Source of the DNA: Lachnospiraceae bacterium | GTDB lineage: Bacteria; Bacillota_A; Clostridia; Lachnospirales; Lachnospiraceae | NCBI GenBank assembly: GCA_024691045.1 | Contig: JAILOC010000016.1 | Location: 1 to 7,313, forward strand | Direction: 5' to 3' | Length of the DNA: 7,313 nt | Part shown: positions 632 through 6,192 of the stretch, piece by piece | How the letters are laid out: each line of letters starts with the position of its first letter | How positions within the stretch are numbered: the first letter of the stretch is position 1 | The notes under the pieces: model-generated | Database searches by the model: none | What the model saw: only the letters and a program-made list of their open reading frames with translations | Told to the model about the DNA's origin: nothing | Translations under genes and position numbers: made by a program

Positions 632-1339
632 TCATTCTTTACTGATGCAAGATCTGATATTGCGGTTAAGCTCCATCAGTTCTCTTATCTCTTCTGTACG
701 CTCATTATGTTCTCCGCTTTCGGAGATCAGTTTCTCAAGTATCCTTTCATAGGAACTCATCTCAGCATCCAGATAATCGGACAAGCCTCTGTTCTCTTTG
801 ATAAGATCCGCACCGTATCTGTCTTCGGGGGTCATCGAAGGATCGGCACCGTCTTCAGACTTTCCGGTGTATCTTATCCTCATCGGAAAATAGTACTTTC
901 CGGCATCGACCAAAACGTTATTGCGCTTTATCTCAAAACCGTTTAACCTGAGGAAATTCCTGAACTCCGGAATGTTCGACTGCGGCTGGACTATGAATTC
1001 GTCCATCTGCTTTATGCAGTCCATACCGTTTGTCAGGATATCCCTGATGAGCATCCCACCCATTCCGGCAATGACTGCGGTCTTAACGCTACCCGGCTCC
1101 ACTTTCGAAAAACCGTCTGAGATGATGAGACTGATCATATCCGAAAGACCTGCTTTTTCAACATTTTCCCTTGCTCTTTCAAGAGGACCCGTGCGAAGGT
1201 CGGAGGCGATCACTTTGGGAGAGATTCCTCTCGATACCAGTTCGATAGCCATGAAACCGTGATCGCAGCCGATATCGGCGCATGCAAGTCCTCCCGGAAC
1301 AAGTTCAAGTATGTTCTCTAATCTGTCAGAGAGCCTCAT
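632..1339 (-). CDS. trmK: tRNA (adenine(22)-N1)-methyltransferase TrmK
   Basis: This 235-residue class I SAM-dependent methyltransferase matches the length of Bacillus subtilis TrmK (YqfN, about 238). The family methylates N1 of adenine 22 in the D-loop region of certain tRNAs in the cytoplasm. Visible motifs are the glycine-rich SAM loop ADIGCDHG (21-28), the acidic residue after strand 2 in [11 protein letters not shown] (44-54), SDG (74-76), the diagnostic AGMGG (91-95) and QPQSN (118-122), which stands where the family usually has QPN. A C-terminal helical, charged region (about 178-235) fits the coiled-coil domain of TrmK. The ATG overlaps the rpoD stop in an ATGA (1339-1336), with GGAGG at 1344-1348 only 4 nt upstream, so translation is probably coupled to rpoD. 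The rpoD-trmK order is a known Firmicute arrangement. No disrupted motif is seen. Confidence 0.93.
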
Positions 1340-3309
1340 GTATCCTCCAGATAATCCTTGAGCTGCTTTGAGCGGCTGGGATGACGGAGCTTACGGAGAG
1401 CCTTTGCCTCGATCTGTCTGATCCTCTCACGGGTTACGTTGAATTCCTTTCCGACCTCTTCAAGAGTACGCTGTCTTCCGTCATCAAGACCGAAACGGAG
1501 TCTGAGTACTTTCTTTTCCCTGTCGGTAAGTGAATCGAGAACCTTGTCGAGCTGCTCTCTGAGAAGCATCTGTGTTGCTGCCTCTGCGGGTGCGGGAACA
1601 TTGTCGTCCTCGATGAAATCTCCGAGATGTGAATCTTCCTCTTCACCGATGGGAGTCTCGAGCGATACGGGCTCCTGGGAGATCTTGAGGATCTCACGAA
1701 CCTTCTCCTCGGGAATGTTCATCTCGGCTGCGATCTCCTCGGGGCTGGGCTCTCTTCCGAGAGTCTGGAGGAGCTGGCGGCTTACACGGATGAGCTTGTT
1801 GATGGTCTCAACCATATGTACGGGGATACGGATGGTACGTGCCTGGTCGGCGATGGCTCTGGTGATCGCCTGTCTGATCCACCATGTTGCATATGTCGAG
1901 AATTTATATCCCTTGCGGTAATCGAACTTTTCAACTGCCTTAATGAGTCCGAGATTACCCTCCTGGATCAGGTCAAGGAAGAGCATTCCTCTTCCGACAT
2001 ATCTCTTTGCGATGGAAACAACGAGTCTGAGGTTAGCCTCTGCAAGAGCATTCTTGGCTTCCTCGTCACCCTTTTCCATTCTCTTTGCAAGCTTGATCTC
2101 TTCCTCTGCGGTAAGAAGAGGAACCTTACCGATCTCCTTGAGATACATACGGACGGGATCCTCAATGCTTACGCCTTCGACAAGTGCATCGATGTCAATC
2201 CTGTCTACGGCATCCTCATCGGAATCAACGAGATCCTCGGGGCTGGGTCCGTCAAGCTCAAACTCATCGGGAGGAAGATCCGATCCGCCGGGGCCGTCAT
2301 CGGGGAAAAGAATGATTATTCCCTTGGCTGAAAGGTTCTCGATAACCTTATCAACCATCTTGTCGATAAGCTCATCATCATCGGTGACCTTTGTCACGGC
2401 ATCATTGATCTTGTCGTAATCTAGTCCCTTGTTCTTTTTGCAATGCTTAACCAGAGCCGCAGTGATCTCCTGGACCTTATCTTCGAAGGACATCTCATCG
2501 GAATCAGTGATGACGATGGGCTCTTCTGCCACCTGCTTGCCCTTACCCTTTGCGGGCTTGGTCTCGGGAACCGCCTTGCTCTTTGTATTGGGTTCTGCCT
2601 TTGACTTGGGTTCTGCTTTTGCCTTGTCCTTAGCTTTGCTCTTGGGCTCTGCCTTGGGTACGGGCTTGGTCTTTACATTCTTTGCATCAGCCTTCTTAGG
2701 TGCGGGCTTGGTCTTTGCATTCTTATTATCAGCCTTCTTAGGTGCAGGCTTAGCTGCCTTCTTGGGCTGTGCTTTTACTGCGGGCTTTGCTGCCTTCTTA
2801 GCAGGTGCCTTTGCTGCGGGCTTTGCGCTCTTCTTAGGTGCTGCCTTTACTGAAGGCTTTGCAGTCTTCTTAGCGGGTGCCTTTGCTACGGGCTTTGCAG
2901 TCTTCTTAGCGGGTGCCTTTGCTGCAGGCTTTGCTGCCTTCTTAGGTGCTGCCTTTGCTGCGGGCTTTGCGCTCTTCTTAGGTACAGGCTTTGCTGCAGG
3001 CTTTGCGGCCTTCTTAGGTGCTGCCTTTACTGCAGGCTTTGCTGCCTTCTTAGGCGCTGCCTTTACTGCAGGCTTTGCGGCCTTCTTAGGTGCTGCCTTT
3101 GCTGCGGGCTTTGCGCTCTTCTTAGGTGCTGCCTTTGCTGCAGGCTTTGCGCTCTTTTTAGGTGCTGCCTTTGCTGCGGGCTTTGCTGCTTTCTTGGGCG
3201 CTGCCTTTGCCGCGGGCTTTGCACTCTTTACAGGCTTTTCCGCTGCCTTCTTTGCTGCGGGCTTTGCGGCAGCCTTCTTAACATTTTTCTTCTCTTCCCT
3301 CTTAGCCAT
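1336..3309 (-). CDS. rpoD: RNA polymerase primary sigma factor RpoD/SigA with long Lys/Ala/Pro repeat tail
   Basis: This is the housekeeping sigma-70 factor, which directs RNA polymerase to -10/-35 promoters. Of its 657 residues, about 1-260 form a low-complexity basic tail: thirteen 12-mers at 31-186, two 14-mers at 187-214, then a Lys/Glu/Pro/Ser stretch. No acidic residue occurs from 25 to 193. A sigma region 1.1-like domain follows (about 273-335, ending near [13 protein letters not shown]), then an acidic linker (336-374), region 1.2 (382-418), region 2 (420-490, with [10 protein letters not shown] at 446-455 and YATWWIRQA at 473-481), region 3 (about 498-580) and region 4 (588-645, with [20 protein letters not shown] in the helix-turn-helix). 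The core is complete and canonical, so the protein should be functional. The tail nearly doubles the usual Firmicute length of about 370. Basic N-terminal tails are known in actinobacterial SigA/HrdB, but this core looks Firmicute. ATG 3309 has AGGAGG at 3320-3325, inside the end of dnaG. No start downstream of the tail has been favoured. Confidence 0.97.
2668..2751 (-). repeat. Two tandem 42-bp coding repeats in rpoD
   Basis: Immediately after the 36-bp array, residues 187-200 ([14 protein letters not shown]) and 201-214 ([14 protein letters not shown]) form a second, longer repeat type. It shares the KP..KKA core with the 12-mer but introduces aspartate and asparagine. It grades into an irregular Lys/Glu/Pro/Ser segment (215-260) with repeated EPKSKA words at 221-226 and 233-238. 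Confidence 0.9.
2752..3219 (-). repeat. Thirteen tandem 36-bp coding repeats in rpoD
   Basis: The stretch encodes RpoD residues 31-186 as thirteen contiguous 12-residue units, with no spacer and the frame kept throughout (13 x 36 = 468 bp). The majority unit is [12 protein letters not shown]. Variants change A to V at position 4, A to S or T at position 11, AAP to APA at positions 6-8, and one unit carries PVP at positions 6-8. On the plus strand the recurring words are ttcttaggtgctgcc and gcgggcttt. Units 2 to 6 from the N-terminus are closest to one another, as expected from recent duplication by slippage or unequal recombination. Each unit contributes four lysines and no acidic residue. 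Confidence 0.95.
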
Positions 3310-3314
3310 CTGGG

Positions 3315-5108
3315 TTATTCCTCCTCGTCTGTGATACGTAATTTTTCCTGTTTAAGTCTGTCTATCTCTATCCTGCAGTTAAAGACCTTGAGTTCCTTTT
3401 CCGGATCGTCCGTTGTCATCAGAAGATCGCATTTTCGTTCCATGACTTTGATGATCAGATCCTTGAGCATTGCGATCCGCTTTTCCGGAGTATCTATATC
3501 CGGTGCGGAATTCTGCAGGATACCCGTTGCATCTTTAATGAGTTCCTCATCTTCAAAGCCTGCGAGAAGCTTCTGCGTATCGAACTCACCCGTCTCCAGC
3601 ATCTCATATGCTCTGACCGCAACCTCTCTGCACGATCCCGGTGAAAAATCATCCGCCTTCAGATATTTCTTCACCACCCTGAATATGACCGGTTCATCCG
3701 TCATCCAGGTCAGCAGCGAGCTTTCCGCGGGCGTCCAATCGTTTTCCTTCTTTTTGCCGGAAGGCTTCTTAGGCGGTGTATATACCGTCTTGCCGGCAGA
3801 TGCCTTGGAAGCATATTCCGGAGGTCTAGTCTCTTCCAGAAGCTTTGATACTTCGGAAGCCGGAATGCCGAACCTGCTCACGATTGAACCGGCATAGGAA
3901 TTCATCCTTACCTCGTCGCCTCCGAACATCCACAGATTCTCAACTATCTCGCGTTTGCATCTGTACTGCTCCTCGGGATCCGACAGGTCGTATCGTTCCT
4001 TTACCCTGTCTTCTATATAAAGGAATCCGTTCTCCGCTTCTTCGATACGCTTTTCGAATTCCTCCGGTCCGTTCTTGTTCAGGAATTCATCCGGATCCTT
4101 GCATGGCTTAATGCTTATCCTCTTCGGAGTGATGCCGACGTTCGTAAGCATCCTTACCGCCTTGAGAGCCGCTTTTTCTCCGGCTTCATCCATATCGTAG
4201 GCGAGGTAAACATCTCGTCTGTCCCTTTTTATCATAGCCGCCTGTTCTTCGGTAAACGCCGTTCCCAGGGATGCTATCGCGGAATCAAATCCGGCCTGGT
4301 GCATCGATATGACATCCATGTATCCTTCACAGAGGATGTAATATTTCTTGCGCGATCTCTTGGCGAAATTGTATCCGTAGAGATTTCTTCTTTTATCGAA
4401 GATTGAAGTCTCGGATGTGTTCAGGTACTTCGGTTCACCGCTTCCGAGAACTCTTCCGCCGAAGCCGATGACCTTCTTATCCGGGGTTATTATCGGGAAC
4501 ATCACTCTTCCGAAAAATGCCGAACTCATTCCGTACTTTTCATGGTTCGTCGCTATTCCCGAGGCAATGATCAGTTCGTCCGAATACCCCTTCTTCCTTA
4601 AATGATCGACGACCTCACGTCCGTTGTTGCCGGCAAAGCCGAGTCCGAAATGTCTTATCGTCTCATCGGTAAGGCCCCTGTCCTTGAAATACGCAAGGCC
4701 CCTTTCGCCGTGCGGGGAACTCAGGTTGTTCATGAAAAAGAGAGCGGCGTCCGAATTGATCGCTTTCAGAAGATCGGATCTCTGGCGTCTTTCCTTGTCC
4801 GCCGGGGAATCATCGGCCTCCTTCACCTCCATGCCCGCACGTTCGGCGAGGATCTTAACGGCTTCGGGGAAGGATACGTTCTCGTACTTCATTACAAAGC
4901 CGAAGACATTTCCACCCTCACCGCATCCGAAGCAGTGAAACATCTGCTTGGGCGGATAGACCGAGAATGACGGAGTCTTTTCATTATGGAAAGGACACAG
5001 TCCCCAGTAATTATTTCCTTTTTTCTTGAGAGGTATGTAGCTTCCGACGACATCGAGGATGTCATTGCGTGCTCTTACTTCCTCTACGAATTCATCCGTA
5101 AAATACAT
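3315..5108 (-). CDS. dnaG: DNA primase DnaG
   Basis: DnaG synthesises RNA primers for Okazaki fragments and chromosome initiation together with the DnaB-type helicase. At 597 residues it is normal length. The N-terminal CHC2 zinc-binding domain shows C38, H41, C59 and C62 ([11 protein letters not shown] at 38-48, [11 protein letters not shown] at 59-69). The RNA-polymerase core includes FGGRVL (216-221) and [11 protein letters not shown] (224-234). The TOPRIM catalytic centre has EGYMD (261-265, glutamate E261) and YDMDEAG (304-310, D305 and D307), followed by KDPDEFL (337-343). A Pro/Lys-rich linker (about 428-457) leads to a helical C-terminal domain (about 458-597), expected to bind the replicative helicase. 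The ATG lies 3 nt after the dgt stop and has only a weak, distant GGAG, so expression probably relies on coupling to dgt. The stop is 5 nt before rpoD. All expected catalytic residues are present. Confidence 0.97.
3320..3325 (-). promoter_or_regulatory. rpoD ribosome binding site inside the dnaG 3' end
   Basis: AGGAGG is a perfect anti-16S match lying 10 nt before the rpoD ATG. The same bases encode the last glutamates of DnaG (its C-terminus reads TDEEE), so the primase C-terminus and the sigma-factor ribosome binding site constrain each other. It supports the start at 3309 and hence translation of the repeat tail. Confidence 0.85.
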
Positions 5109-5111
5109 TTA

Positions 5112-6119
5112 TCAGATCATCTCCCATGATTTGGGAACAAACAGGTCATTATATGTAAGGATTGCGAATCTGTCAGTCATAGCTCCGACATAGTCACAAA
5201 CGGCGATCTCGAGTTTCTCGCCCTCGGCCACCATCCTTTTGTTTTCCTCGGGGAGCTTGTCGGGATGGTTCATGTAGTAGTCATAAAGGGTTATGACGAG
5301 AGTCTCGGCCTTACCCTCTTCGGATTTGATGTCGGGGTTTGTGTAAACCCTGTCGAACATGAACTGTCTGATCTCCTTCATGGCATTCATAACACCGTCA
5401 CTCATGCAGATATCATTCTTTTCTTTGCTGTTTGTGATGATGTCGTGCATAAAGGTATCGAGCCTGTCTCCGGGAGTCGAGCCGAGAACATCCCTTATCG
5501 AAGCGGGAACATCCATTTCGGTAAGAACCCCGCCCCTAACCGCATCATCCATATCATGGTGTATATATGCGATCTTGTCGGATAATCTCACAACCTTCCC
5601 CTCAAGCGTTGCCGGCATCCTGGAGGTCTGGTGATTCAGTATTCCGTCCCTTACTTCCCAGGTAAGATTAAGGCCCTTTCCGTCCTTTTCAAGCTTTTCG
5701 ACAGTTCTTACGCTCTGCTCGTTATGCTTAAAGCCGAAGGGGCAGACAGAGTTGAGGGCTCTCTCTCCCGCATGTCCGAAAGGCGTATGTCCGAGATCAT
5801 GACCCAGAGCTATCGCCTCTGTGAGGTCCTCGTTCAGCCTGAGCGCTTTGGATATCGTGCGGGCTATCTGTGAAACCTCGAGAGTATGGGTGAGCCTGGT
5901 CCTGTAGTGGTCGCCCTCGGGGATCAGATAGACCTGGGTCTTATCCTTGAGCCTTCTGAAAGCCTTGCAGTGCACTATCCTGTCACGGTCCCTCTGGTAA
6001 ACGGGCCTGATATCACACTGAGGCTCCTCCGTGTCACGCCCTTTTGAATTTTTGGAAAGTGATGCGTAAGGGCTTAAGATCTGCTCTTCACGCTCCTCAA
6101 GCATTTCTCTGATGGTCAT
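5112..6119 (-). CDS. dgt: dGTPase-like HD-domain deoxynucleoside triphosphate triphosphohydrolase
   Basis: This family hydrolyses dGTP, or other dNTPs, to the deoxynucleoside and tripolyphosphate, and so adjusts the dNTP pool. With the start at 6119 the protein has 335 residues. It opens MTIREMLEEREEQILSPYAS, contains CDIRPVYQRDRDRI (35-48) and carries the metal-binding HD set: H78 in RTRLTHTLEVSQ, H107-D108 in GHDLGHTPFGHAGE (106-119) and D181 in LSDKIAY. The C-terminal DYVGAMTDRFAI and PKSW motifs are also family hallmarks. An upstream in-frame TTG/ATG could add 15 residues, but the chosen ATG has CAGGAG (6126-6131) at 6-nt spacing and matches the family N-terminus. It is the first gene of the minus-strand operon and ends 3 nt before dnaG, which puts nucleotide-pool control next to primer synthesis. 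Substrate preference cannot be read from the sequence. Confidence 0.93.
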   Translation of the reverse strand: MTIREMLEEREEQILSPYASLSKNSKGRDTEEPQCDIRPVYQRDRDRIVHCKAFRRLKDKTQVYLIPEGDHYRTRLTHTLEVSQIARTISKALRLNEDLTEAIALGHDLGHTPFGHAGERALNSVCPFGFKHNEQSVRTVEKLEKDGKGLNLTWEVRDGILNHQTSRMPATLEGKVVRLSDKIAYIHHDMDDAVRGGVLTEMDVPASIRDVLGSTPGDRLDTFMHDIITNSKEKNDICMSDGVMNAMKEIRQFMFDRVYTNPDIKSEEGKAETLVITLYDYYMNHPDKLPEENKRMVAEGEKLEIAVCDYVGAMTDRFAILTYNDLFVPKSWEMI

Positions 6120-6125
6120 AATTTT

Positions 6126-6131
6126 CTCCTG
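6126..6131 (-). promoter_or_regulatory. dgt ribosome binding site
   Basis: CAGGAG lies 6 nt before ATG 6119-6117. It decides the dgt start in favour of this methionine over the longer in-frame alternatives near 6164, which have no purine-rich site in front of them. Confidence 0.8.
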
Positions 6132-6192
6132 AAAAACAGTCACCGTATGTATATACCCCATCAATCGGGAAATCCCTCTGTTTTTTTAGAAA

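Follow-up and report, generated by a model that had tools for sequence, protein, structure and literature searches.

What does a housekeeping sigma factor gain from an N-terminal arm of about 260 residues, a third of them lysine? The question is raised by a 7,313-nucleotide stretch of DNA (the window), placed in the Lachnospiraceae by its DnaG, which is 97% identical to that of a Lachnospiraceae MAG from yak rumen. The minus strand carries dgt (5112-6164), dnaG, rpoD, trmK (632-1339) and a further partial gene, and the plus strand the start of an ABC transporter gene. The partial gene (1-621, minus) shows faint similarity to threonyl-tRNA synthetase (TIGR00418, 24 bits against a cut-off of 384) and has no Pfam match. 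The features of the rpoD locus are collected in Table 1.

Table 1. Features of the rpoD locus in the window, with the basis of each assignment.
Feature	Positions	Strand	Basis
rpoD ORF	1336-3309	minus	657 aa
Polycationic N-terminal RpoD tail, residues 1-260	2530..3309	-	translation, counts; AlphaFold2 pLDDT 26-39
13 contiguous 12-residue (36-nt) KPxxKxxxKKxA units, residues 31-186	2752..3219	-	unit listing; Tandem Repeats Finder
Sigma region 1.1, residues 275-334	2308..2487	-	PF03979 20.3 bits, below cut-off 22.5, best stretch 284-334; AlphaFold2 helices
Acidic disordered linker, residues 336-374	2188..2304	-	counts; pLDDT <50 over 336-390
RpoD regions 1.2 to 4, residues 384-657	1339..2160	-	Pfam PF00140, PF04542, PF04539, PF04545; NF006666; 7l7b_F E=7e-148
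rpoD Shine-Dalgarno GAGGAGG	3320..3326	-	inside 3' end of dnaG; duplex energy -11.6 kcal/mol
dnaG	3315..5108	-	5 nt upstream of rpoD start; TIGR01391 428 bits

The tail contains 87 Lys (33%), 85 Ala, 40 Pro, a single Arg and 10 acidic residues, with a net charge of +78. The acidic residues stand at positions 5, 6, 24, 194, 208, 221, 228, 233, 239 and 249, and the stretch from 25 to 193 holds 57 Lys and neither Arg nor any acidic residue. The original prediction, made from the sequence, had given the tail about 260 residues, about one third of them lysine, and an acid-free interval from 25 to 193; the counts agree, for the interval to the residue. The H1-like KP..K...KK pattern that it described resolves into the thirteen contiguous units of Table 1, and Tandem Repeats Finder reports a 36-bp period with 13.3 copies at 2743-3222. 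The Lys:Arg ratio is 87:1 in the tail and 22:26 in residues 384-657 (Fisher p = 1e-13). AC2028, a relative that also has the tail, allows a comparison over 800 kb, or 29% of its genome. Of the 673 non-overlapping ORFs of at least 100 aa there, none matches the RpoD tail in net charge per 100 aa (+34, with +22 the runner-up) or in longest acid-free run (220, followed by a membrane-like stretch of 121), so the composition of the tail is more than chance. The tail has the composition of H1-like tails of the AlgP and HupB type: a lengthy repeat of Lys, Ala and Pro that is predicted to be disordered, contains KP and KK motifs and has few Arg or acidic residues. A Pfam search with the window tail gives no match at E<=5, the HC2 family PF07382 included, and a PDB search gives nothing significant, the best hit (E 0.02) being a designed protein. 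HC2 is like the tail in composition, and for the sigma tail of P0052 its profile gives 25.9 bits, short of the Pfam cut-off of 40. A 301-aa open frame runs antisense across the tail (2429-3334, plus strand) and is probably a by-product of the repeat composition. A pattern search for the repeat DNA in five tailed genomes also finds KPEP-type runs at places other than rpoD.

Beyond the tail the protein is conventional. Regions 1.2, 2, 3 and 4 all score over their Pfam cut-offs and the RpoD equivalog model NF006666 (NCBIfam) gives 608.9 bits against a cut-off of 572, in line with the complete RpoD core first described; by these profile matches residues 384-657 are an ordinary primary sigma. Each of five tailed relatives has one RpoD match per genome, some of the assemblies being incomplete, and the remaining matches are at or below 31% identity. 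The tailed RpoD thus appears to be the sole primary (housekeeping) sigma factor of the clade. The AlphaFold2 model, built from a 35-sequence alignment, orders the protein as disordered (about 1-272), helical (275-328), disordered (336-390) and then the sigma core, with an overall pTM of only 0.25, a mean pLDDT of 53 and 338 of 657 residues below 50. Residues 1-270 have pLDDT 26-39 in 10-residue blocks and no secondary structure, and the tail is predicted to be intrinsically disordered. At the place of region 1.1 the model has helices at 275-292, 298-308 and 312-328 (block pLDDT 67-80), and the phmmer alignment to 7l7b_F starts at residue 277; a helical region 1.1 is therefore predicted to be retained between tail and core. 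Residues 261-383 together carry a net charge of -25.

The start codon of the tail is preceded by a strong ribosome-binding site, the only one in the window. Its duplex energy with the anti-Shine-Dalgarno sequence is -11.5 or -11.6 kcal/mol in L003, L004, L005, L006, L007, L013 and L014 as well, seven of the eight related loci that have a complete rpoD N-terminus (L010 was left out of the scoring). The tail is very probably translated, as judged from these start sites. A start after residue 260 had been named at the outset as a result that would count against the tail, and the start-site evidence points the other way.

Related loci were gathered with dnaG as the anchor: genome contigs were scanned with the window DnaG and the 80 best loci were kept. 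In all 14 of the closest (DnaG identity 73-97%) the tail follows dnaG directly. The rpoD N-terminus is complete in eight of them; the contigs of the other six (L001, L002, L008, L009, L011 and L012) end 39-316 nt past the dnaG stop, inside the tail, of which 11-104 residues can be read. A contig ends inside the tail at 6 of the 14 clade loci and at none of the 66 others. The repeat appears to break assembly, and such tails are therefore probably under-reported. The window and the 14 loci form one side of a branch of the DnaG tree with SH-aLRT 100. The remainder of that tree, with tail labels set by our own thresholds, comprises 60 loci without such an extension, four labelled 'mixed' and two unscored. 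Next to the clade stands L015, whose long extension is no lysine repeat and whose position as sister is unsure, the join being flagged as long-branch. Within the clade the number of repeats varies between close relatives and the frame stays open. Several members come from the rumen, and two genome records, AC2028 and P6A3, are not marked as MAGs. The gap between dnaG and rpoD is at most 5 nt in the tailed clade (3310-3314 in the window) and 14-105 nt, measured to the first ATG, in 51 of the 64 loci outside it where rpoD was matched; L058 and L062, among the other 66, have no rpoD match. The original prediction had asked which lineages carry the tail and had held that close relatives without it would speak against a function. 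In the DnaG set it is confined to one clade, and the 14 closest relatives are all tailed, six of them being only partly read.

The wider samples place this clade at one end of a range. In the family sample, 289 of 298 genomes match the RpoD core, and among the best 150 matches, from 149 genomes (the other 140 lie outside), an open frame of at least 440 aa occurs in 12 genomes. One is AC2028 (G001); of the other eleven, eight combine high Lys with mixed charge (D+E 10-22%), two are not Lys-rich and one is so only weakly. In the class sample, 139 of 148 genomes match and all are listed; 14 have a frame of at least 440 aa, G001 included. The 13 others are of mixed charge (G214 and a number of short extensions), built on a PAKKAE repeat (G430), acidic, or not true extensions, and none of the 13 has an acid-free extension. 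In the RpoD of G430, another Clostridia genome (L163, G430:C80), the PAKKAE repeat is long and of near-balanced charge, net -12. The acid-poor form is absent from the other listed genomes read in the two samples, in agreement with the expectation that Firmicute sigma-A normally lacks such a tail. Clostridia vary the N-terminus of RpoD, and among the sequences read here the window clade is the extreme basic end. When the tail served as a protein query against 8 genomes, 5 of them tailed, it matched 2; searches of this kind are poor for such low-complexity sequence, and the negatives were not used.

Codon use points to a constraint on lysine within the clade. The longest acid-free tract from each of 15 clade loci, selected as acid-free, together give 705 Lys codons (626 AAG, 79 AAA) and no Arg; over whole tails the totals are 947 Lys and 7 Arg. 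The window, L001 and L003 supply 37 twelve-mers, chosen to have at least 3 of the 4 Lys, and their 148 Lys positions read 134 AAG, 10 AAA, 2 AGC, 1 AAT and 1 GGG, with no Arg and no Glu. AAG to AGG and AAG to GAG are single transitions, like the silent AAG to AAA; the silent change is seen ten times and the other two never. Among the 13 units of the window pN/pS is 0.36, a value given without a p-value since repeats homogenise and the units are not independent. Silent changes accumulate without Arg or Glu and pN/pS is low, and this favours purifying selection for Lys in the tail. The tail is real, clade-wide and under apparent selection.

Tails of this kind are found on other sigma factors. 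A search with residues 1-260 alone (7981 candidates scored) returns at least 41 proteins at E<=0.001. Sigma-70 domains are present in 31 of these; 15 belong to the Lachnospiraceae type, 3 combine PF04546 with region 1.1, and 13 fall in neither class. Of these 13, eight were examined and resemble one another, and one of the eight is named Actinomycetota. Among the ten other matches are esterases, PF16258 proteins and DksA-type proteins (PF01258: P0131, P0143 and P0144), DksA being, like sigma, a factor that binds RNA polymerase; P0131 has a KPA-rich tail. The esterase/hydrolase matches (PF00756) are P0123, P0130 and P0132, with P0130 named as Olsenella. The original statement that actinobacterial tails lack such regular repeats is not supported, as Actinomycetota-type primary sigmas carry dense repeats (14 protein letters not shown). 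In P0121 and P0122 these have the KPAAK style and few Arg, as in the window tail, which is nevertheless longer and more cationic (87 Lys, compared with 36-42 in five Actinomycetota-type tails counted). All 25 tails counted, drawn from separate groups, have more Lys than Arg.

In a tree built from 104 RpoD cores, at least five changes of the acid-poor label are needed, and well-supported branches force three of them; each change may be a gain or a loss, and five is not a census, the sample being biased toward proteins found by similarity to the window RpoD. The acid-poor groups are the window clade with P0020, P0044 and P0046; P0049; P0045, P0052, P0055, P0073 and P0077; the Actinomycetota type, for whose rows a long-branch join is flagged; and the PF04546 type, which we take to be the Proteobacteria-type RpoD lineage. 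All rows without an acid-poor tail are loci read from DNA. An earlier tree with database proteins (11 changes) was discarded because truncated gene calls were labelled 'short' in it and at least two of these genes are tailed. The acid-poor, Lys-only tails of the Actinomycetota and PF04546-bearing types lie on branches separate from the window clade, and on this tree the similar tails seem to have arisen separately.

With moderate confidence, the tail is most likely an H1-like electrostatic tether for non-specific contact of sigma and holoenzyme with DNA. Each sigma, and hence each holoenzyme, would have a flexible arm with some 80 added positive charges. This arm would bind DNA weakly and without sequence preference, increase local contact with DNA while promoters are being sought and in the early steps of initiation, and keep the holoenzyme on the nucleoid; off DNA, it could fold back onto the acidic 336-374 linker. 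We infer DNA binding, tethering, a place outside the cleft and effects on search, open-complex formation and localisation from charge, predicted disorder, position before region 1.1 and analogy to AlgP, HupB, CarD and mycobacterial sigma-A. The restriction of the tail to one well-supported clade in which every member has it, the conservation of Lys at codon level and the occurrence of a single RpoD match per tailed genome (five genomes) are consistent with this tether.

The analogues agree with the tether in different respects. The C-terminal domain of AlgP/PhaF in Pseudomonas is a 154-aa Lys/Pro/Ala repeat, disordered, H1-like and DNA-binding (PMC9239181); it is C-terminal and not on a sigma factor, and the comparison concerns the KPAA repeat. 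The mycobacterial HupB tail, with H1-like PAKK/KAAK motifs, is required for nucleoid association (PMC5676037), and sits on an HU homologue rather than on RNA polymerase. The HMGA-like domain of Myxococcus xanthus CarD is basic, disordered and DNA-binding, on a protein that binds RNA polymerase, and can be replaced by other basic disordered domains (PMC4374960); CarD differs from RpoD in being a transcription factor and in its AT-hook (RGRP) motifs. The closest layout is that of mycobacterial sigma-A, whose Group 1 N-terminal extension is disordered, basic in its first half and acidic in its second (PMC5511352), as the window RpoD is basic first (1-260) and acidic second (261-383), with predicted disorder over 1-272 and 336-390. 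According to PMC5511352, the mycobacterial N-terminus is unrelated to region 1.1, whereas a helical region 1.1 is predicted in the window RpoD; the extension sits outside the cleft in crystal structures, and its deletion destabilised fork-DNA complexes in the work of Lin et al. cited there. The same system provides the strongest counter-evidence. In PMC10011835, mycobacterial sigma-A lacking 42, 92 or 132 N-terminal residues showed no significant change in promoter affinity (SPR), still transcribed and complemented, while removal of 179 residues, the acidic part included, failed. These deletions of the basic part make a large contribution of such a tail to promoter binding less credible. The recurrence of such tails could also reflect easy expansion of lysine-rich minisatellites.

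Two other roles were considered and dropped. The RNA polymerase delta subunit has a basic tract plus an acidic tail; its HARE-HTH domain, PF05066, is not among the window Pfam matches, and delta is found in 0 of 30 Lachnospiraceae genomes searched, tailed and others alike, so compensation for a missing delta is uninformative. Replacement of HU is rejected, as HU is present in 30 of 30 of the genomes. HU copies number 2, 3, 3, 3 and 2 in the five tailed genomes (G001-G005), compared with 1 in 23 of the 25 others.

An unlikely but reasonable alternative is that the main partner is another polyanion, polyphosphate or RNA, or that the tail drives RNA polymerase condensates, instead of plain tethering to DNA. 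AlgP, with its KPAA repeats, is associated with granules of polyphosphate (PMC9239181), and a Lys-only, disordered polycation spaced by Pro and Ala could coacervate. PPK1 is found in 29 of 30 Lachnospiraceae genomes searched, all five tailed ones among them, which makes polyphosphate an available alternative ligand to DNA; however, PPK1 is equally common without the tail (24 of 25) and does not track it.

That the tail is a nearly neutral low-complexity expansion, a lysine-rich minisatellite tolerated where the disordered N-termini of primary sigmas are weakly constrained, seems improbable. The Clostridia extensions read here range over acidic, zwitterionic and basic forms, the repeat number shifts between close relatives, and a mycobacterium can do without the basic part (PMC10011835). 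Against this, the tail is kept in 15 of 15 clade members, its Lys positions turn neither to Arg nor to Glu while silent changes accumulate, pN/pS is 0.36, and the preference for Lys over Arg extends across separate groups, although repeat homogenisation could mimic part of this evidence.

A mainly internal role is doubtful as well; here the tail would engage region 1.1 and the acidic linker, and so set the strength of free-sigma auto-inhibition. The net -25 of residues 261-383 stands directly beside the +78 tail, and the 115 residues that lead up to region 1.2 have a net charge of -22 to -29 in the 17 tailed proteins counted that belong to neither the Actinomycetota nor the PF04546 type. The charge of the tail is, however, about threefold that of the acidic segment, and acidic linkers are also present in those relatives without such a tail whose sequences were read, so the linker is probably older.

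An annotation artefact, with the true start after the tail, is very improbable: the 395-aa database entries P0038 and P0039 open at internal Met codons and omit the whole tail, and L005 has a strong predicted site at an internal TTG (-10.3 kcal/mol, the strongest internal in-frame start among the 8 scored loci), but the first residues of the two entries lie within the tailed frames of L004 and L014, whose contigs match theirs in length, and there the tail start codon has -11.6 and the internal Met codons -2.2 and -2.0 kcal/mol, the counterparts of the TTG are weaker (-4.3 in L004, -6.7 in L013), in the window no internal start is better than a GTG (-6.3), and start-site strength and conservation together reject a spurious upstream extension. 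Internal start calls hide the tail in these two entries, and the trait is probably under-reported for this reason too.

Returning to the tether, a broader proposal is tentative. There may be an unrecognised, recurrent class of 'histone-tailed' primary sigma factors, arisen separately in Bacillota, Actinomycetota and the PF04546 RpoD, in which an H1-like nucleoid-binding arm would set the distribution of RNA polymerase on DNA and the repeat copy number would tune the charge, like a VNTR rheostat.

Primary (Group 1) sigma factors are already known to carry divergent, disordered N-terminal extensions, which are poorly understood; what is new here is the form of the tail. Among the papers listed in searches of the open-licence literature, none concerns a Lys-rich RpoD tail in Lachnospiraceae. 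The version found here is extreme, nearly free of Arg with a long acid-free stretch, and sits on what is apparently the sole housekeeping sigma of a Firmicute clade. Since region 1.1 is predicted to be retained beside the tail, the effect of a polycation on an otherwise standard sigma factor would be cleanly testable in this clade.
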